Shown here piece by piece: positions 29,568-38,924 of a stretch of 64,000 nucleotides of DNA. Position numbers and translations under genes: made by a program. The stretch lies in the NCBI RefSeq assembly GCF_008807075.1, contig NZ_CP035632.1, forward strand, positions 1 through 64,000. Direction: 5' to 3'. Under the pieces are notes generated by a model. The model ran no database searches, was not told the DNA's origin, and saw only the letters and a program-made list of their open reading frames with translations. Position 1 is the stretch's first letter; every line of letters starts with the position of its first letter. The DNA comes from Synechococcus sp. RSCCF101. GTDB lineage: Bacteria; Cyanobacteriota; Cyanobacteriia; PCC-6307; Cyanobiaceae.

Positions 29568-31502
29568 ATGGGGAGTGTCGCTGCCCTGGCGGGGCCTGCA
29601 GCCCAGACCCTGCTGGCCCAGTTCGTTCCCCACGGGCACTGCTACCTCTGGCGCCCGGACCTGGTGAGCCTGCACGTGCTCTCCGACAGCCTGATCGCCA
29701 TCGCCTACTTCAGCATTCCGGTGGCGCTGGCCACCTTCCTGCGGCGCCGCAGAGACCTGCCCTTCGCCTGGGTGTTCTGGCTGTTCGGGCTGTTCATCGT
29801 CTCCTGCGGCATCACCCACGTGCTGGAGGTGTGGACGCTCTGGCATCCCGATTACTGGCTCTCCGGTGCGCTCAAGGCGCTTACGGCCCTGGTGTCGCTC
29901 TACACCGCCTTTGTGCTGTGGCGGATCATGCCCCAGGCCCTCACCATCCCCACCCCGACCGAGCTGGCGGCGCTCAATCGCCAGCTGGAGGAGGACTCGC
30001 AGCAGCTCCGCCAGACCTCCCAGAGCCTCCGGGACGAGCTGGAGTTCTCGAACAGCCTGTTCGACCAGTCCGCGATCGGACTGGCCTGCACCGGGCCGCA
30101 CGGCCGCTGGCTGCGGGTCAATGCCCGTCTCTGCGACATGCTCGGACTGGATCGCGGCGACCTGGGCTCCCTCTCCTGGGGCGCTCTGGCCGCTCCCGAT
30201 GCCGGGCCGGAGGTGCTCGACCGCCTGCGCGGGTTGGACAGCGGTTCGTTCGAGGATTCGGAGCTGGAACAGCGCCTGCTCACGCGTGACCGCGGCGCGA
30301 TCGATGCGGTGCTCTCGGTGCGCGGCGTGCGTCAGAGCTCCGGTGAGCTCAAGTACTGCCTGGCGGCCGTGCAGGATGTGAGCGAGAAGCGGGCGGCCCT
30401 GCGCGAACTGGAGGAGCAGCGCAGCATGTATTCGGCCGTTCTGGCCAGCATCTCCGATGCGGTCTTCGTGGCGGACCGGCAGGGCGACTTCACCTATGTC
30501 TGCCCCAATGTGTCCACGATCTTCGGCTATTCGCCTGCGGCGGTGGCCCAGTTCAGCAGCGTGAGCTCACTGCTGGGTGAGGATCTGTTCGAGGAGAAGC
30601 AGCTGGAGGAGATGGGAGAACTCAGCAACATCGGCTGCAGCGTTCTCGATGAGCAGGGCGGCAGCCATGAGCTGCTGGTGACGGTGAAGGCGGTGGCGAT
30701 CGGCGCCGGTTCGCGCCTCTACACCTGCCGCGACATCACGGAGATCAAGGCGGCCGAACAGCGGCTGCTGCAGGCCAAGCAGCGGCTGGAGGAGAGCAAC
30801 GAGGAGCTGCAGGAGTTCGCTTATGTGGCCTCCCACGATCTGCAGGAACCGCTGCGCAAGATCCTCGCCTTCGGCGAGCGGCTTCAGAGCGCCTGCGCCG
30901 ACCGGTTCGAGGATCGCGAGGCGGATTATCTCAAACGCATGATGAGTGCGGCCCTGCGCTCGCGCGAACTGATCAATGATCTGCTCACCTTCTCCCGCGT
31001 GCAGACCAAGGCCCGGCCGCTCGAGCCCACCGATCTGGCCGCGGTGGTCGATGGTGTGCTCTCGGACCTCGAGATCGCCATCGAGAGCAGCGGTGCCGAG
31101 GTGGATGTGGGCCCCTTACCGCACCTGGATGCCGATGCCAATCAGATGCGGCAGCTGTTTCAGAACCTGCTCAGCAATGCGATCAAGTTTCGGCGTGCCG
31201 ATGTGGCGCCACACATCCAGATCAGCTCCCGCAGCCTCAGCGGACCGGGCCCGCAGCGCTGCGAGATCAGCGTGAGTGATAACGGCATCGGATTTGAAGC
31301 CCGCTACGCCGAGGCGATCTTCATGCCGTTCAAGCGTCTGCACGGTCGCCAGGCCTATGAAGGCAGTGGAATCGGTCTGGCGATCTGCCGTAAAATTGCC
31401 AGACGCCATTCCGGCACCCTTGTGGCGCAGAGCAGTCCCGATCAGGGGTCCACGTTCACGCTTCAGATGCCCGTTCATGCGGCAACGCCCATCAGCTCTT
31501 GA
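29568..31502 (+). CDS. Ethylene-receptor-like sensor histidine kinase (EBD-PAS-PAS-HisKA-HATPase)
   Basis: 644 residues. The N-terminal ~130 form three membrane helices closely matching plant ETR1 and Synechocystis Etr1 ethylene-binding domains: D40, Y47, I50, P51, I77 and the copper ligands C80 and H84 are in register (AYFSIP, FIVSCGITH), as is the downstream LKALTALVS. A coiled linker, two PAS domains (~155-270 and ~285-395), HisKA (AYVASHDLQEPLRKI, H423) and HATPase_c (LLSNAIKF, DNGIGFEARY, GSGIGLAICRKIARRHSG) follow. No phytochrome-type GAF is seen, unlike Slr1212. The response regulator downstream overlaps it by 4 bases. Ligand (ethylene or other) is inferred. Confidence 0.88.
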   Translation: MGSVAALAGPAAQTLLAQFVPHGHCYLWRPDLVSLHVLSDSLIAIAYFSIPVALATFLRRRRDLPFAWVFWLFGLFIVSCGITHVLEVWTLWHPDYWLSGALKALTALVSLYTAFVLWRIMPQALTIPTPTELAALNRQLEEDSQQLRQTSQSLRDELEFSNSLFDQSAIGLACTGPHGRWLRVNARLCDMLGLDRGDLGSLSWGALAAPDAGPEVLDRLRGLDSGSFEDSELEQRLLTRDRGAIDAVLSVRGVRQSSGELKYCLAAVQDVSEKRAALRELEEQRSMYSAVLASISDAVFVADRQGDFTYVCPNVSTIFGYSPAAVAQFSSVSSLLGEDLFEEKQLEEMGELSNIGCSVLDEQGGSHELLVTVKAVAIGAGSRLYTCRDITEIKAAEQRLLQAKQRLEESNEELQEFAYVASHDLQEPLRKILAFGERLQSACADRFEDREADYLKRMMSAALRSRELINDLLTFSRVQTKARPLEPTDLAAVVDGVLSDLEIAIESSGAEVDVGPLPHLDADANQMRQLFQNLLSNAIKFRRADVAPHIQISSRSLSGPGPQRCEISVSDNGIGFEARYAEAIFMPFKRLHGRQAYEGSGIGLAICRKIARRHSGTLVAQSSPDQGSTFTLQMPVHAATPISS

Positions 31503-31951
31503 GATCACCCTTGGACCCCGTGCTCATTCTGCTGGCGGACGACGATGAGGACGACCGGCTGCTCATCTGGGACGCCCTGGCCCAGAACCGCGTCCCCAAC
31601 AAGCTCAAGTGCGTCGGAGATGGAGAGGAGCTTCTCGCCTATCTGCGACACAAGGGGGCGTATCAGGATGCGGAGACCTCGCCCCGGCCGGATCTGATTC
31701 TGCTGGATCTGAACATGCCTCGCATGGATGGGCGTGACGCGCTGCGCTGCATCAAGGCGGATCCGGATCTGCGGCGCATCCCGGTGGTGGTGCTCACCAC
31801 CTCACAGGCGGAGGAGGACATCCTCAAGACCTACGACCTGGGTGTGAGCTCCTTCATCACCAAGCCGATCGGTTTCGACCGCCTGGTGAGCATGATGGCC
31901 GACCTCGGCAACTACTGGTTCAACCTTGTGTCGCTGCCGCCGCAACGCTGA
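31499..31951 (+). CDS. Rcp1-like single-domain response regulator
   Basis: 150-residue CheY-fold receiver with no output domain. Acidic pocket LLADDDEDDRLL, phosphoacceptor in LILLDLNMPRMDG, Thr in VVVLTTSQAEED and Lys in FITKPIGFDRL. The loop KGAYQDAETSPRPDLI and the C-terminal LGNYWFNLVSLP are typical of Rcp1/phytochrome-partner regulators. A TTG overlapping the kinase stop (TTGA) or an in-frame TTG/GTG 12-21 bases later may be the start. Almost certainly the partner of the ethylene-receptor-like kinase. Confidence 0.9.
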   Translation: MRSPLDPVLILLADDDEDDRLLIWDALAQNRVPNKLKCVGDGEELLAYLRHKGAYQDAETSPRPDLILLDLNMPRMDGRDALRCIKADPDLRRIPVVVLTTSQAEEDILKTYDLGVSSFITKPIGFDRLVSMMADLGNYWFNLVSLPPQR

Positions 31952-32040
31952 GGGATCACCCCTCTCGTGACGATGGCTGTCCGGCCGAGGACGGCGGGTC
32001 GGCGCGCTGGCTACGTTGACAACACTGCTGTGGTGGTGCC

Positions 32041-34521
32041 GTGGAGAGCGTTGGACCGGCGGCCTCAACCGACCATGGCCCGCTCCGCATCCTGCTGGTG
32101 GATGATGACGAAGACGATTTCATCATCACCCGCGACCTGCTCAGTGACAGCCGCCGGCTCGACGCGGAGCTGATCTGGGCCGCCTCAGGGGCCGAGGCCC
32201 GCGGACTGCTCTCCGGCACCCCCATCGATCTGGTGCTGCTGGATGTGAACCTCGGCGGGGTCTCCGGCCTGGATCTGCTGGTGGAGATCCAGCGCGACGG
32301 CTGCACCTGCCCGCTGATCATGCTCACCGGCGCCGGTGATGATCAGGTGGATCAGCGCTGCATGGATCTCGGCGCCGCCGACTATCTGGAGAAGGGGCCC
32401 CAGCTCACGGTCACCCTGCTCGAGCGCTCCATCCTTCATGCGCTGGACCGGCAGCGTGACCGCCAGAACATCGCCCTGATGACCACGGCGCTGGAGGGGT
32501 TGTCCGACGGCATCTTCATCACCGACAACGACACCCGTCTGCTGTTCGCCAACCGCGCCGTGCGGGACCTCTGCGGTGGCAACAGTGGCGACGCCACCTG
32601 CTGGACGGTGCCCACCGATGCCGCCGACCATCTCACCCACCTGATGGAGCTCGCCGGCAACCATGGCGACAACGGTGCGGAGGAGAGCGGAGAAATCGAT
32701 TTCCTGCTCAAGCATCCCCAGGACCGGAATCTGCGCACCTTCTCGCTCTCCGACTATCAGGTGACGCTCGATCAGGCGCAGCGCCACCGGCTGCGGCTGG
32801 GCATCGTCCGGGATGTGAGCGAGGTGCGCGCGGCCCAGGCGGAACTCGATCGCTTCTTCAAGCTCTCAGGCGACTGTCTCTTCGTGGCGGATGCCTCCGC
32901 CACCATCCTCCGTGTCAATCCGGCCTGGCGCCGCACGCTCGGCTTCCAGAGTCACGATCTGGTGGGGCGGACCTTCTGGTCGCTGTTTCACGATCCCCAG
33001 CACCCGCTGCTCTGCAAAGCCCGGGAACGGCTGGAGAATCATCACTCCGTCGAGCAGATGGAGCGACCATGCCAGGGCTCCTTCGGCCATCGCATCTGGA
33101 TGTCGTGGAATCTGGTGCCCGTTCCCGAGCAGGGGCTTCTCTACGGCAGCGGTCGCGACATGTCCGAACGCAAGTCGTCCGAGGACGCGCTGCTGTTCAC
33201 CAGCCTGCACGACAGCCTGACCGGTCTGGAGAACCGGGTCTGCAGCCTGAAGCGTCTGCAGACCTGTCTGCAATGGCAGCAGCGCTATCCGAACCGTTTC
33301 TTCGTGTTGCTGTTCATTGATCTCGACAACTTCAAGAACGTCAATGACCGTCTCGGCCACGCCGCCGGTGATCAGCTGCTGAGCGAAGTGGCCCGCCGCC
33401 TCAAGCAGGGTGTGCGCGCCACCGATCATGTGGCCCGTCTCGGTGGAGATGAGTTCCTCGTGCTGCTGGAGGATCTGGACAACCAGGCCGATGCCCTGAC
33501 CATGATCGAGCGCCTGGTCCGGGCGCTCTCCTCCCGGGTGACACTCGGCAGCGAAACGGTGGCCGGCTCGGCGAGTGTGGGTGTGGTGTTCTCCAGCCGC
33601 ACGTACCGCACCGCGGAAAGCATGATCCGCGATGCCGACATCGCCATGTACGAGGCCAAGCGCGGCGGCAAGCACGGCTACCGGGTCTTCGATGCCTCCA
33701 TGTCGGCCCAGTCGAGTCGTCTGCTCACGCTGGAGGCCGGTCTGGAGGAGGTCATCTCCCGGCGTGAGTTGATCCTGGCCTACCAGCCGATTGTGAACCT
33801 GGCTGACGACTGCCGTCTGATCGGATTCGAGGCCCTGCTGCGCTGGCAGCATCCGCAGCTGGGAACCATCAGTCCGCATGAACTCGTTCCGATCGCCGAG
33901 CACAATGGCCTGATCGGCCCCATCGGCCTGTGGGTTCTCGAATCGGCCTGCCGCGATCTGCTGCGCTGGCAGGGGCTGCATCCGGGAGGGCACGCCTTCA
34001 CGCTGAACGTGAATCTGTCGGCCAAGCAACTGTTCGATCCGGAACTGCTGCAGTCGATCCGGGATGTGCTGGATGTCACCGGCTTCCCGCCCCGGCTCCT
34101 GCACCTTGAGGTGACCGAAACCAGCCTGATCACGAACGTGGCGCTGGCCACCCATGTGTTGCGCAACATCCAGGACCTGGGCATCCACCTCAGCCTCGAT
34201 GACTTCGGAACCGGCTATTCGTCGCTGCAGTACCTGCAGCAGTTCCCGATCAGTTCGCTCAAGATCGACAAGTCATTTGTGCGGGGCATCGAGAGCAACG
34301 AACGGGATCTGCGCATCGCCTGCGCCGTCATCTCCCTGGCCCGGAGCCTCGAGCTCGACGTGGTGGCGGAAGGTATCGAGACCCGCGTTCAGATGCATCG
34401 CCTCCAGACGCTGGGCTGCGGTCTCGGTCAGGGCTATCTGTTCGCCAGGCCCCTCTCCGCCGAGGAGACGGAGGCGTACATCCGCTCTCAGGCCACCCAG
34501 CTGGAGAAAGCTCTGGCCTGA
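32041..34521 (+). CDS. Receiver-PAS-PAS-GGDEF-EAL c-di-GMP signalling protein
   Basis: 826 residues. N-terminal receiver (ILLVDDDEDDFIIT, phosphoacceptor in LVLLDVNLGGVSG), two PAS domains (~150-265, ~275-390), diguanylate cyclase (RLGGDEFLVLL, GGDEF at ~468-472) and phosphodiesterase (FEALLRWQHP, EAL at ~597-599; DDFGTGYSSL; VVAEGIE; QGYLFARPL). Both catalytic signatures are intact, so it may make or break c-di-GMP. The receiver lysine is in a divergent context (DYLEKGPQL). It follows the Rcp1-like regulator by 89 bases and is a likely output of the same pathway. GTG start. Confidence 0.93.
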   Translation: MESVGPAASTDHGPLRILLVDDDEDDFIITRDLLSDSRRLDAELIWAASGAEARGLLSGTPIDLVLLDVNLGGVSGLDLLVEIQRDGCTCPLIMLTGAGDDQVDQRCMDLGAADYLEKGPQLTVTLLERSILHALDRQRDRQNIALMTTALEGLSDGIFITDNDTRLLFANRAVRDLCGGNSGDATCWTVPTDAADHLTHLMELAGNHGDNGAEESGEIDFLLKHPQDRNLRTFSLSDYQVTLDQAQRHRLRLGIVRDVSEVRAAQAELDRFFKLSGDCLFVADASATILRVNPAWRRTLGFQSHDLVGRTFWSLFHDPQHPLLCKARERLENHHSVEQMERPCQGSFGHRIWMSWNLVPVPEQGLLYGSGRDMSERKSSEDALLFTSLHDSLTGLENRVCSLKRLQTCLQWQQRYPNRFFVLLFIDLDNFKNVNDRLGHAAGDQLLSEVARRLKQGVRATDHVARLGGDEFLVLLEDLDNQADALTMIERLVRALSSRVTLGSETVAGSASVGVVFSSRTYRTAESMIRDADIAMYEAKRGGKHGYRVFDASMSAQSSRLLTLEAGLEEVISRRELILAYQPIVNLADDCRLIGFEALLRWQHPQLGTISPHELVPIAEHNGLIGPIGLWVLESACRDLLRWQGLHPGGHAFTLNVNLSAKQLFDPELLQSIRDVLDVTGFPPRLLHLEVTETSLITNVALATHVLRNIQDLGIHLSLDDFGTGYSSLQYLQQFPISSLKIDKSFVRGIESNERDLRIACAVISLARSLELDVVAEGIETRVQMHRLQTLGCGLGQGYLFARPLSAEETEAYIRSQATQLEKALA

Positions 34522-34540: not shown

Positions 34541-34837
34541 TCATCCGTCGGATGCGGCAGCATCAGGGTCGAGATCCAGATCGAGCGAGGCGAGCACTCG
34601 GGCCTTGTTCGATAGGTCCCCGATGATGTGAATCGTCGGCGGTGGCAGGATTCGTGCCAGCGTCGGCGTCATCACGATGGCATCTTCGATCAGAGCCTCC
34701 GGGTGCTCGAAGGCGTCCAGCACCTCCAGTTCAAAGTCGGATCCCAGACTCTCCTCCAGCAGGCTCCGCAATTGCCCAACCAGGGCCTCGGCTGTCGGGG
34801 TTATCCCAGTCACATAGAGGCGCAGCTTGGCTTTCAT
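34541..34837 (-). CDS. KaiB-like thioredoxin-fold protein
   Basis: 98 residues matching the KaiB family: KLRLYVTGITPTAEALVGQL, LEVLDAFEHPEALIED and the hallmark TPTLARILPPPTIHIIGDLS. KaiB is a fold-switching clock protein; the same domain is also the sensor part of SasA. No kaiA or kaiC is in this window, so a clock role is not supported here. Its ATGA start overlaps the stop of the upstream response regulator, placing it as the last gene of an EAL-kinase-regulator-KaiB set. It may bind the neighbouring kinase or regulator (inference). Confidence 0.88.
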   Translation of the reverse strand: MKAKLRLYVTGITPTAEALVGQLRSLLEESLGSDFELEVLDAFEHPEALIEDAIVMTPTLARILPPPTIHIIGDLSNKARVLASLDLDLDPDAAASDG

Positions 34838-35232
34838 GACGGGGGCAGCACCGTGGTGGCCTGATCAACGATGGCCCGGGTGATGCTGATGATCTGGTCG
34901 CGTTCCAGAGGCTTCATGACCAGATCGAAGCTGATCTGCTCCGACCGGGCTGCAGCCAGATCCTGGAAGAATTCCTTGTGAAAGGCCGTGACGATGTACA
35001 CCCGACCGGAATAACCCTGCCTGCGGAGCTGCCGCAGCGTTTCCACGCCGTTCATTCCCGGCATCCGAAGATCGAGATAAATCAGACAGGGCTGCCTGGA
35101 TCGGGCGGCGGCCAGCCCCTCCTCGCCGGATGCCGCGAGCACCACCTCCAGATCGGCTTCGTCAGAGAGACTCAGGGCAAACGCTTTGCGGACGGAGGCG
35201 TCGTCATCAATCACCAGAACGGTTTTGGTCAT
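34834..35232 (-). CDS. Single-domain response regulator
   Basis: 132-residue CheY-like receiver: VLVIDDDASVRKAF, phosphoacceptor in LIYLDLRMPGMNGVETL, Thr in VYIVTAFHKEFF, Lys in FDLVMKPLERDQI. No output domain. Start chosen at MTKTVLVIDDD (35232). It lies 40 bases downstream of the PAS kinase and overlaps the KaiB-like gene by 4 bases, so it is the evident partner of that kinase. Confidence 0.92.
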   Translation of the reverse strand: MTKTVLVIDDDASVRKAFALSLSDEADLEVVLAASGEEGLAAARSRQPCLIYLDLRMPGMNGVETLRQLRRQGYSGRVYIVTAFHKEFFQDLAAARSEQISFDLVMKPLERDQIISITRAIVDQATTVLPPS

Positions 35233-35272
35233 CTCTGGTCCGGCTGGATGACGGTCTCGTGCCAAAACAACA

Positions 35273-36766
35273 CTAGCCCGCCGGTTGCCGAGCAGCAGCC
35301 TGATGGGATGCCCCGGCGCTGGGAAGCCGCACGGTCATGGTGGTGCCGTGGCCTTCGCGGCTGAAGCAGTCGATCGTGCCTTTGTGCTCCTGAATGATCG
35401 ACCAAGAGGTGGAGAGGCCCAGTCCCGTACCCTTTCCCTCCGGCTTTGTGGTGTAGAAGGGGTCAAAGATGTGTGTTCTCTGATCCGCGGGAATGCCTGG
35501 CCCCGTGTCTTCGATCTCCAGAACGGCATGATCCCTGTCGCGAGAGAGTCCGATCCGCACCCGTCTGGTCTCGCACCCAGTCACGGCATCGAAGGCGTTG
35601 GTGAGAAGATTGATGAGAACCTGCTGAATGGCGTTCGGATCCGCTCGGATTCCGATCGTCTCCCGCCCGGCGTCGACCTCGATCGCAATGTTCTCCTTCC
35701 GCCCTCGGTACTGCAGCAATCTCAGCACCTGATCCACCAGTGTGTTGAGGCTGACGTCGTAAGCCACGTTTTCGCTGCTGGCATGGTGGCGTGAGAACGA
35801 GAGCAGATCTTTCACGATGGCCGCGCAGCGTCTGGCTTCGTGTTCGATGTCTTTCAGAACCTCGTGACGGCTGTCAGTGGCATCGGTCTTCTTCAGGCAG
35901 TACTGGGCGAAATTGATGATGCCCATCAATGGATTGTTCAGCTCGTGGGCCAGGCCCGCGGTGAGATGGCCCAGCGACGTGAACTTCTCCAGCCTGAGCC
36001 GCTCGTCGCCAATGGTCTTGCTGTCTGTGATGTCTCGTGCTAGTTCCAACCGAACCATCTTGCCATTGGACCAGCGGATCGCCTTGTCGGCGATGCCGTA
36101 CCAGTGCTTGTTCTGCTCGTTCCTGAACTCCCACCGGTAGGTCTGGCCCAGATTCTCGTTGAAGATGTACTTGTTCGTACAGAATGGGCAGGGCGAGTCC
36201 CGATTCTGCAGAACTTCATGACATTTTCTGCCCACTACATCATCGCCCCAGGCCGCCTTGAAGGCGGCATTCACATAGAGCAGGTCGTAGCTGTCGGGAT
36301 CGGAGACATAGATCACATCATCCATGCCGTCGAACAGTGCTTCCAGTTGGGCGTGGTCCGAGCCGGCAGCAGCGGGGGCCGAGTCGGCAAAATCGGCTTC
36401 ATCGCTGATCAGGGCCAGCAGCGCTTTGGGATGCTGCTGTGCGTCGTTCTCCAGGACGGCGATGGTCACCGCAGCGGGTCGAACCCCGCCATCGGCTCTG
36501 ATGAAGCGTTTGTGGATGGTGATGCCTCTGATGTGCCCACGAGCCATTCGATCGATCTGCTGACGATCCCTCTCCCGATCATCCGGATGTGTCACATCCT
36601 CCCAGGACATGCCGATCGGTGGGTTCTGCTCCACACCGAGCCAGGCCTGCAAAGACCTGTTCATCTCAATCCAGGCCCCCTTCGCGGATAGCACAGCTGT
36701 GGCCACCGCTGCTGAAGCAAGGCCGGCGCCTGCTGCAGCTGCCTCACTGTTCGCCTTGATATCCAT
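35273..36766 (-). CDS. PAS-PAS sensor histidine kinase (soluble)
   Basis: 497 residues with no membrane helix. PAS1 (~20-125), PAS2 (~145-255) carrying a Cys-x2-Cys loop (SPCPFCTNKYIF), then HisKA (GHLTAGLAHELNNPLMGI) and HATPase_c (INLLTNAFDAV, EDTGPGIP, GKGTGLGLS). The H-box resembles NtrB-type kinases. The Cys pair might bind metal or sense redox (inference). The ATG at 36766 is preferred; a GTG 12 bases upstream is in frame. Preceded by the EAL gene (70-base gap) and followed by the regulator and KaiB-like genes. Confidence 0.92.
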   Translation of the reverse strand: MDIKANSEAAAAGAGLASAAVATAVLSAKGAWIEMNRSLQAWLGVEQNPPIGMSWEDVTHPDDRERDRQQIDRMARGHIRGITIHKRFIRADGGVRPAAVTIAVLENDAQQHPKALLALISDEADFADSAPAAAGSDHAQLEALFDGMDDVIYVSDPDSYDLLYVNAAFKAAWGDDVVGRKCHEVLQNRDSPCPFCTNKYIFNENLGQTYRWEFRNEQNKHWYGIADKAIRWSNGKMVRLELARDITDSKTIGDERLRLEKFTSLGHLTAGLAHELNNPLMGIINFAQYCLKKTDATDSRHEVLKDIEHEARRCAAIVKDLLSFSRHHASSENVAYDVSLNTLVDQVLRLLQYRGRKENIAIEVDAGRETIGIRADPNAIQQVLINLLTNAFDAVTGCETRRVRIGLSRDRDHAVLEIEDTGPGIPADQRTHIFDPFYTTKPEGKGTGLGLSTSWSIIQEHKGTIDCFSREGHGTTMTVRLPSAGASHQAAARQPAG

Positions 36767-36836: not shown

Positions 36837-38924
36837 CTAGCTGGGGTAGGGGCCATCCTCCCGCAGGCTCCTGAGCAGCCCGGCCAGGCTGCTCACGAAC
36901 TCGGCGCGCAGCCCCGTCATCACCTCAATCACATCCGCTCGTGTCGTGCTGCCCGCCGGCCCGGATCCGTCGATCAGTTGCCGTGCCATCCGTTCCGACT
37001 GCCGGTGGATCTCGCCAATCACGCCATAGCCAGGCAGGTGCCCGTAGCGTTTTTTGCCCCGGCCTGCATACCAGGTGCGGAAGGGGCAGCCTGTGCGAGC
37101 CAGCGATCGGATCTGCGCCGAATCATGGTCGGCCAGGGCCTTCAGCAGTTGATCGATCCATGCCAGATGGCAATGGGCTGCAATCACGAGCTGGATGTTG
37201 AAGCGATTGAACACCTCCATCTGTGTGCCCCACCCCGGTGCGCTGGTCCAGGCTTCGATCCATTCCCGGAGATGACCTGGCGGCATCGGTCGCCCGATCG
37301 CGTAGCCCTGACCGCGATGGCAGTTGAGGGAGGGGAGAATCACGGCGTGCTCCGGATCCTCGATGCCCTCCGCGATCACCTCCATGCCGAAGACATCGGC
37401 CAGCTGGGCAATGCTCTCAACGATCTCCATGTCGGTTGGGTTCCGCAGCATGTCTCGCACGAAGCTCTGGTCCACCTTGAGCTGATCGACGGGGAGGGAT
37501 CTGCAATAGGCGAGCGAGCAATAGCCAGTCCCGAAGTCGTCGAGGGAAAAGCGAACCCCGTGCCGGTGGCATTCCAGGATGATGTCCTGAGCTCGCTCGA
37601 AATCCGAGAAAGCGGTTGATTCAAGAATCTCGATCTCGACGTCTGCCGGATTGATCTCCGGATGCTGGTCGAGTCGCTTCCTCAACCGCCTTGGGAAGTC
37701 TCCGGCCAGCAGGTGCGCGCTGCTGATGTTCACGGCCGCCTTCATCAGGAGGCCCTGCCGCATCCATGCCTTCAGCTGGTTCAGCGCTTCGTCCAGCACC
37801 CACTCGCCCAGCTCCACGGCCAGAGCCGTGTCATCGATCACTGGGAGGAAGGCTCCCGGCAGCAGCAGGCCCTTCTCAGGATGCTGCCAGCGAATCAGGG
37901 CTTCAAGCCCCAGGATCTCTCTGCTGACGAGATCCACCTGAGGCTGATAGAAGAGGGTGAACTCGCCATTCTCCAGGCCGCGTTCGATCGCATCGCAGAG
38001 CTGCTGACGGTCGATCCGCGCGTTGCCCCAGCTGGCGTCATAGAACGCCATTCGGTTCCCACCATTCAGCCTGGCCTCGCCCAGGGCGAGCGTTGCACTG
38101 TTCAGCAGCGCCTGAGGTTGGCCGATGCTCTGATCGCTGGAGGCTGCCCCGATGCTGAGCGAGATCCTGGCCTCGCCATCGTCCAGCTGGATGGGTTGGC
38201 TTGTGGTGTCGAGAATCCGCTCCACCAGGCTGATGCCATCCGCTTCCTTCTCCAGGCCCTGGATCGTCATGGTCAGGCCATGGCTGCCGACCCGCCGCAC
38301 GGAATCCTCCTCGCGCAGGATGGCCCTGACCCGGTTCACGGTGGCGGCCATCACCTCATGCACCGCCTCCGAGGTCCACAGGCCCCGCAGCTTCTCGTAG
38401 TCATCCACCTCGGCCCGGCAGACCAGAACGGTGGTTCCCGTTGTTCGGCGAGCCAATGGCTGCGTGACATCACTCGTCGGCGCCAGCCAGAGCCAGATCC
38501 GGTCCCACGGCTGCGACTGGACCGGCAGCGCGACCGCGCCGACAGACACCGTCAGCTCCCTGCCGTTGGCTGCCGGCAGCACGGCGGACACCGCTGCTGG
38601 CGGCCGCCCATCACACAGGTGCAGCAGAACCGTCCCGATGGCCCCTCCAAGGCTGGAGTCCTCAGGGCTCTGCACCGCCGCCAGAGCATCGCTTGAGTCC
38701 GCGCATCCGAGCAGAGCACGGGCGGCCGGGTTGGCGGCCACCGGTCGGACTCCGCTCTGTTGCCGCTGGTTCAGCGCCGAGCAGTCCAGCCACCAGAGGG
38801 GGATGGGCAGTGCCTGAAACAGGGCGTCCAGCTCACCGCTGGAGGGTGCGCGCTCACCATGCTCGCCCCGACCAGATTGCGGGCCGGTCAACGGGTCCCT
38901 CGTCCTCTTGCATGTGGCTTGCAT
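36837..38924 (-). CDS. Degenerate GGDEF-EAL protein with CZB-like C-terminus
   Basis: 695 residues. A PAS-like N-terminus (LFQALPIPLWWLDC) is followed by a diguanylate-cyclase fold whose GGDEF is replaced (VRRVGSHGLTMTI). The EAL phosphodiesterase signature is complete (LGLEALIRWQHPE at ~340; VNISSAHLLAGDF, DDFGTGYCSLAYC, VIAEGIE, QGYAIGRPM). Residues ~580-655 resemble a chemoreceptor zinc-binding (CZB) helical domain: AAHCHLAW, GCPFRTWY (C613) and EIHRQSE, although the fourth ligand position is Glu rather than His. A c-di-GMP-degrading, zinc- or redox-gated enzyme is inferred. First gene of the set that runs to the KaiB-like gene. Confidence 0.88.
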   Translation of the reverse strand: MQATCKRTRDPLTGPQSGRGEHGERAPSSGELDALFQALPIPLWWLDCSALNQRQQSGVRPVAANPAARALLGCADSSDALAAVQSPEDSSLGGAIGTVLLHLCDGRPPAAVSAVLPAANGRELTVSVGAVALPVQSQPWDRIWLWLAPTSDVTQPLARRTTGTTVLVCRAEVDDYEKLRGLWTSEAVHEVMAATVNRVRAILREEDSVRRVGSHGLTMTIQGLEKEADGISLVERILDTTSQPIQLDDGEARISLSIGAASSDQSIGQPQALLNSATLALGEARLNGGNRMAFYDASWGNARIDRQQLCDAIERGLENGEFTLFYQPQVDLVSREILGLEALIRWQHPEKGLLLPGAFLPVIDDTALAVELGEWVLDEALNQLKAWMRQGLLMKAAVNISSAHLLAGDFPRRLRKRLDQHPEINPADVEIEILESTAFSDFERAQDIILECHRHGVRFSLDDFGTGYCSLAYCRSLPVDQLKVDQSFVRDMLRNPTDMEIVESIAQLADVFGMEVIAEGIEDPEHAVILPSLNCHRGQGYAIGRPMPPGHLREWIEAWTSAPGWGTQMEVFNRFNIQLVIAAHCHLAWIDQLLKALADHDSAQIRSLARTGCPFRTWYAGRGKKRYGHLPGYGVIGEIHRQSERMARQLIDGSGPAGSTTRADVIEVMTGLRAEFVSSLAGLLRSLREDGPYPS

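Follow-up and report, generated by a model that had tools for sequence, protein, structure and literature searches.

The window studied here, the first 64,000 nucleotides of contig NZ_CP035632.1 of Synechococcus sp. RSCCF101, raises the question of what a KaiB-like protein does in an operon with a histidine kinase and a response regulator. KaiB is best known as a component of the cyanobacterial circadian clock. The operon lies on the minus strand, in the gene order histidine kinase, single-domain receiver, KaiB-like gene. Domain search gives the 497-aa sensor kinase (35273..36766) PAS domains followed by HisKA and HATPase_c, and the 132-aa receiver (34834..35232) matches PF00072 with E 3e-20. 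In alignments the phosphorylation residues of the receiver (D9-D11, D54, T82 and K107) are intact, making a two-component pair of a HisKA/HATPase kinase and a receiver with the DD/D/T/K residues. The receiver carries no DNA-binding domain, and the signature T-[AG]-F-x-x-E-[FY] stands straight after its switch Thr. Its stop codon overlaps the start of the 98-aa KaiB-like gene (34541..34837) as ATGA, just as had been read from the sequence. Separately, the second PAS region of the kinase has a CPFC motif, and KCHEVLQNRDSPCPFC in that region may be a redox or metal site.

The complete KaiB signature announced in the sequence-only reading is there: the TPTLA, LPPP and IIGDLS motifs are all present, and the Pfam KaiB model (PF07689) matches with E 5e-19 and 68.2 bits against a gathering cut-off of 27. 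By profile, then, the protein is a member of the KaiB family. It does not reach the status of a clock KaiB by the circadian KaiB equivalog models of NCBIfam (TIGR02654 and NF006798; also PRK09301), because its scores of 68.3 and 71.3 bits fall below their cut-offs of 145.3 and 110. The same reading had described the operon as being without kaiA or kaiC. This is right for the neighbourhood, where no kai gene adjoins the operon and the kaiC linkage of a clock KaiB is therefore absent, but wrong for the genome, which has kaiA-kaiB-kaiC at about 2.883-2.886 Mb of its single 2.985-Mb contig and a SasA gene at about 0.197 Mb.

Searches with KaiB itself retrieved little besides clock KaiB1, since the window KaiB is closer to the clock KaiB1 proteins (45-49% identity, with 49% to the genome's own KaiB1) than to the KaiBs of the related loci described below (26-35%). 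Among 300 genomes of the family, nothing but the gene itself scored above clock KaiB1, and a degenerate KaiB alignment proved too variable for a contig scan. The receiver was the better search handle. The phylum search, over 244 genomes, gave no other strong match for the window's kinase, and for its receiver a match in one distant member, genome G411, where the order is a haem-NO-binding (HNOB) domain gene, a kinase, a receiver and a KaiB-like gene. These two receivers, once aligned, showed the motif AFHKEFF; used to scan bacterial and archaeal genomes, the alignment returned 80 loci. In all six top-scoring loci (Methylomonas and alphaproteobacteria) KaiB is directly behind the receiver or fused to it; a KaiB HMM found none at the remaining 74, the desulfobacterial kinase/receiver pairs included.

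We speak of a KaiB-coupled module where a receiver of the T-[AG]-F-x-x-E-[FY] clade has KaiB fused or adjacent to it, as it has in the window. The receiver+KaiB pair also occurs in G411 and G1047, two deep-branching members of the window's phylum, and at ten alphaproteobacterial loci or genomes, where the genes are separate and adjacent or overlapping. In Methylococcales the two are fused in one frame of 229-272 aa (best match per genome), and at the 27 loci that were read the second half of this frame was confirmed as a KaiB domain. Two second copies in that order (L223, L224) lack KaiB but have a kinase and receiver. A profile built from eight module receivers, used for a census of sampled genomes, matched in 37 of 201 Methylococcales (the order of G533, a Methylomonas), 7 of 248 genomes of an alphaproteobacterial order and 2 of 194 genomes of the class of G411; of 270 genomes sampled evenly from the class of L088, the seed genome alone matched. 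Six further receiver matches, at 30-40% identity, are on viral contigs.

Following the switch threonine, module receivers have the T-[AG]-F-x-x-E-[FY] signature or something close to it, at a point where the alignment shows three residues more than in ordinary receivers. A single clade holds them and their KaiB-less paralogues (SH-aLRT 97, with 74 other receivers for comparison; 98 for the module receivers in an earlier, smaller tree). The module kinase cores likewise form one clade (SH-aLRT 95 against 40 others), in which G411 and G1047 are nearest the window's kinase. Both are quick trees, with control rows drawn from the same receiver scan. Kinase, receiver and KaiB are co-inherited. The finding is real and goes further than first described, a recurring KaiB-coupled two-component module, and the early suggestion that the kinase or receiver was the likelier partner of this KaiB is supported by the recurring set and by the Methylococcales fusion.

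The reading that we favour, with somewhat better than even confidence, is that KaiB in this module is the dedicated effector of a phosphorylatable receiver, that KaiC is not needed, and that the effector probably acts on a c-di-GMP enzyme or a second kinase. The PAS kinase would sense a signal and phosphorylate the stand-alone receiver. The KaiB-like protein would stay in the thioredoxin-like state as the effector of that receiver, either as a partner protein, as in the window, or as a fused C-terminal output domain, as in Methylococcales. We infer that the receiver touches KaiB and controls it in a phosphorylation-dependent manner, by direct contact of the kind that the CikA pseudo-receiver makes with fold-switched KaiB through the β2 strands of both (PMC6378743, PMC12632262). 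KaiB could then relay the signal by contacting another protein, the most plausible candidates being a neighbouring GGDEF-EAL c-di-GMP enzyme and a second kinase.

Candidate targets flank the window's operon on both sides. A protein that domain search shows as receiver-PAS-PAS-GGDEF-EAL, with intact GGDEF and EAL motifs (32041..34521, plus strand), is encoded convergently with the KaiB gene, its end 20 bp away. It shares 32-35% identity, across some 570-710 aa, with GGDEF-EAL proteins encoded beside other KaiB modules and is a candidate target of the module. On the other side, 70 bp upstream of the kinase gene and on the same strand, a degenerate-GGDEF/EAL protein (36837..38924, minus strand; PF00563 E 6e-68, PF00990 E 6e-10) lacks the GGDEF motif, has the EAL and DDFGTGY motifs and ends in a weak CZB-like tail that scores below the cut-off. 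Its gene is possibly the first of the KaiB operon. Elsewhere, a GGDEF-EAL gene follows the fusion in many Methylococcales and is divergent to the alphaproteobacterial pairs; none was found near G411, G1047 and several Methylococcales loci. Three of the four module lineages have GGDEF-EAL genes nearby, compared with 3 of 74 control loci (p 0.001 by Fisher's test), a rough and indicative figure as the lengths of the controls differ. Such neighbours have a precedent: outside cyanobacteria, a 2011 study reported kaiC and kaiB with kinases, receivers and GGDEF/EAL genes next to them, in loci that do have kaiC (PMC3164672).

The third gene of the Methylococcales operons varies in its output, with a common PAS N-terminus joined to either GGDEF-EAL or a histidine kinase (L202 7887-10256, L216 5114-6619). 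In at least one locus this N-terminus is retained in the downstream gene (42% identical over 241 aa) while a kinase end replaces GGDEF-EAL, which suggests that the constant part may be a PAS docking or sensing unit and that the output is exchangeable.

The sequence-only reading called the protein fold-switching. The prolines P58, P65 and P67 that have been tied to KaiB fold switching (PMC11551320) are indeed kept: a residue table places them in 41, 38 and 37 of 41 module KaiBs, and the window KaiB has all three. The switching itself is doubtful, as most module KaiBs are without the ground-state residues and the model of the window protein is thioredoxin-like. Of the 41, 32 have a residue other than Gly at the Te G89 site, the Te D91 site is mostly Thr or Gln, and Te Y8 is substituted in every one. 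The window KaiB has S84 for Te G89 and A3 for Y8; because it retains D86, the equivalent of Te D91, it is by its residues an intermediate case among module KaiBs. The laboratory change that locks KaiB in the thioredoxin-like state is G89A with D91R (PMC6378743). A structure prediction of the kind proposed along with that reading, an AF2 model that is no proof of the resting state, gives the window KaiB a predicted thioredoxin-like β-α-β-α-β-β-α fold (pLDDT 83.6), and its top Foldseek matches in the PDB are a fold-switch-stabilised KaiB and Legionella KaiB. For a natural receiver-KaiB fusion AF2 gave no usable domain interface (pTM 0.50), the receiver part, modelled without an alignment, being poor.

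A wider proposal, to which we give a little less than an even chance, is that KaiB serves here as a response-regulator output domain. Independently of KaiC, the phosphorylated receiver would control a thioredoxin-like KaiB, and this KaiB would dock on c-di-GMP enzymes or kinases; and clock KaiB and the module branch would be two specialisations of one receiver-binding protein.

The sequence-only reading had also raised a KaiC-independent use of KaiB, and this is now strongly suggested, because seven module genomes have no KaiC by sequence search and because Methylococcales have receiver and KaiB as one fused protein. A KaiC query that finds the window's own genome at 4e-97 gave short matches alone in the seven (L086-L091 and G411), the best at 1.6e-7, with no recognisable KaiC; these are comparable in order to a second, unrelated match in the window's own genome. 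The one completeness figure among the seven genomes is that of G411, 98%. The persistence of the module in such genomes bears on the possibility that in the window the KaiB-like protein instead links the kinase and receiver to the resident KaiABC, binding KaiC or competing with KaiB1 or SasA, so that time information passes to or from the kinase. The genome does have the full kaiABC and SasA, the protein's identity to the genome's own KaiB1 and its three prolines fit such a link, and kaiC, kaiB and kinase genes share operons elsewhere (PMC3164672). Against it, besides the module genomes in which no KaiC was found, stand the scores below the clock-KaiB equivalog cut-offs and the replacement of basic residues of clock KaiB (Te R23 by A18, K43 by E38 and R74/R75 by I69/H70), although several KaiC-binding residues vary in KaiC-linked KaiBs too, so that these are no decisive test of KaiC dependence. 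We consider a link to the resident clock unlikely.

Another possibility is that KaiB acts on the kinase and not on the receiver, binding its PAS or catalytic part and switching it between kinase and phosphatase activity. The kinase cores' own clade means that the kinase is co-inherited with KaiB, and fold-switched KaiB raises the phosphatase activity of CikA (PMC6378743). However, a related kinase core, present beside the pair in the window, was not found beside several alphaproteobacterial pairs (L087, L089-L091), the sensor parts of the module kinases are highly variable, and the fusions at the loci here join KaiB to the receiver, with none to the kinase. An action on the kinase in place of the receiver thus seems improbable.

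The KaiB-like gene might also have arisen by duplication of kaiB1 and have come by chance to lie in a kinase/receiver operon with which it shares no function, given that its nearest single sequences by identity are KaiB1 proteins. In the KaiB tree, the window KaiB groups with the alphaproteobacterial module KaiBs (93/78), outside the KaiB1 clade (97/94). A single clade of all module KaiBs was not recovered and not rejected (p-AU 0.36; about 100 columns with long branches), and with a smaller KaiB set the AU test rejected neither placement, including that of the window KaiB with KaiB1. The position of the window KaiB in this tree is thus not firmly settled. KaiB is found paired with this subfamily of receivers in four lineages, one of which has the two fused, and on that ground chance neighbourhood, to which we give very little credence, is rejected.

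The suggested precursor or relative of SasA did not survive: KaiB and a kinase do share an operon, but the architecture is opposite, with KaiB behind or C-terminal to a receiver that has no DNA-binding domain, and the kinase core, 28% identical to that of SasA, groups with the other module kinases, so that this origin is scarcely credible and is rejected.

The module resembles several known systems and differs from each. Clock KaiB1 and the KaiC-linked KaiBs of proteobacteria have the KaiB domain, the proline triad and the thioredoxin-like alternative fold in common with it; their partner and neighbour is KaiC, whereas the module has a receiver and kinase, has mostly lost the ground-state residues and showed no KaiC in a search of seven related genomes. 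In the CikA complex, as would be the case in the module, a receiver-type domain sits on thioredoxin-like KaiB. The pseudo-receiver of CikA, however, has no phospho-acceptor Asp and binds best when KaiB sits on KaiC, while the module receiver has all phosphorylation residues and is the genetic partner of KaiB. SasA also ties a KaiB-type fold to two-component signalling, but with KaiB at the N-terminus of a kinase that reads KaiC; the module has KaiB joined to the receiver or placed behind it, and in the window's operon the KaiB gene is a separate one. The proteobacterial operons of kaiC, kaiB and a histidine kinase or GGDEF/EAL gene (PMC3164672; L068-L070) share kaiB, the kinase and sometimes a receiver or GGDEF/EAL gene with the module, yet kaiC is their core gene and is missing from the module. 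Among the closest relatives of the kinase and receiver outside the module are the pairs of AtoS/ZraS-like kinase and single-domain receiver in Desulfobacterota, which differ in having no KaiB by HMM and receivers without the T-[AG]-F-x-x-E signature.

In a 2017 survey every genome with KaiB also had full-length KaiC (PMC5520375), and we found no description of a KaiB-coupled two-component module in the open-access library that was searched. A KaiB-receiver module in genomes that yield no KaiC would mean a job for KaiB outside the clock, and KaiB appears to have a second use as a general signalling component. The module would offer an untangled system for receiver-KaiB recognition, the step that CikA uses in the clock, and the natural fusions of methane-oxidising bacteria make the partner of KaiB obvious. 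It is also a route to asking whether the thioredoxin-like state of KaiB came first, as has been proposed for the fold switch (PMC11551320).

Other KaiB-like genes and signalling operons were observed along the way. The window's genome has a second orphan KaiB-like gene (L065 5304-5666; G000:C1 about 2046303-2046665), whose 120-aa product is 60% identical to the kaiC-linked KaiB of G023 and groups with it (100/99); it is perhaps a remnant left after the loss of its own kaiC. Tandem kaiB pairs occur in cyanobacteria (L077, L078), with kaiC adjoining in L077 and none in the fetched stretch of L078, and a rhizobial plasmid operon (L068 3220-7274) runs kaiC-kaiB-kaiB-like-response regulator, the second KaiB-like gene overlapping the regulator gene. 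G870 has a tandem receiver, a KaiB/receiver chimeric ORF and a KaiB gene (L222 6094-7390), apparently a recombined duplicate of the module. In the window, a second signalling operon (29568-34521, plus strand), convergent with the KaiB operon, encodes an ETR1_N-type (ethylene-receptor-like) kinase, a receiver and the receiver-PAS-PAS-GGDEF-EAL protein, and the receiver/KaiB module of G870 (L222) is headed by a kinase whose N-terminus is 47% identical over 141 aa to this ETR1_N-type kinase.
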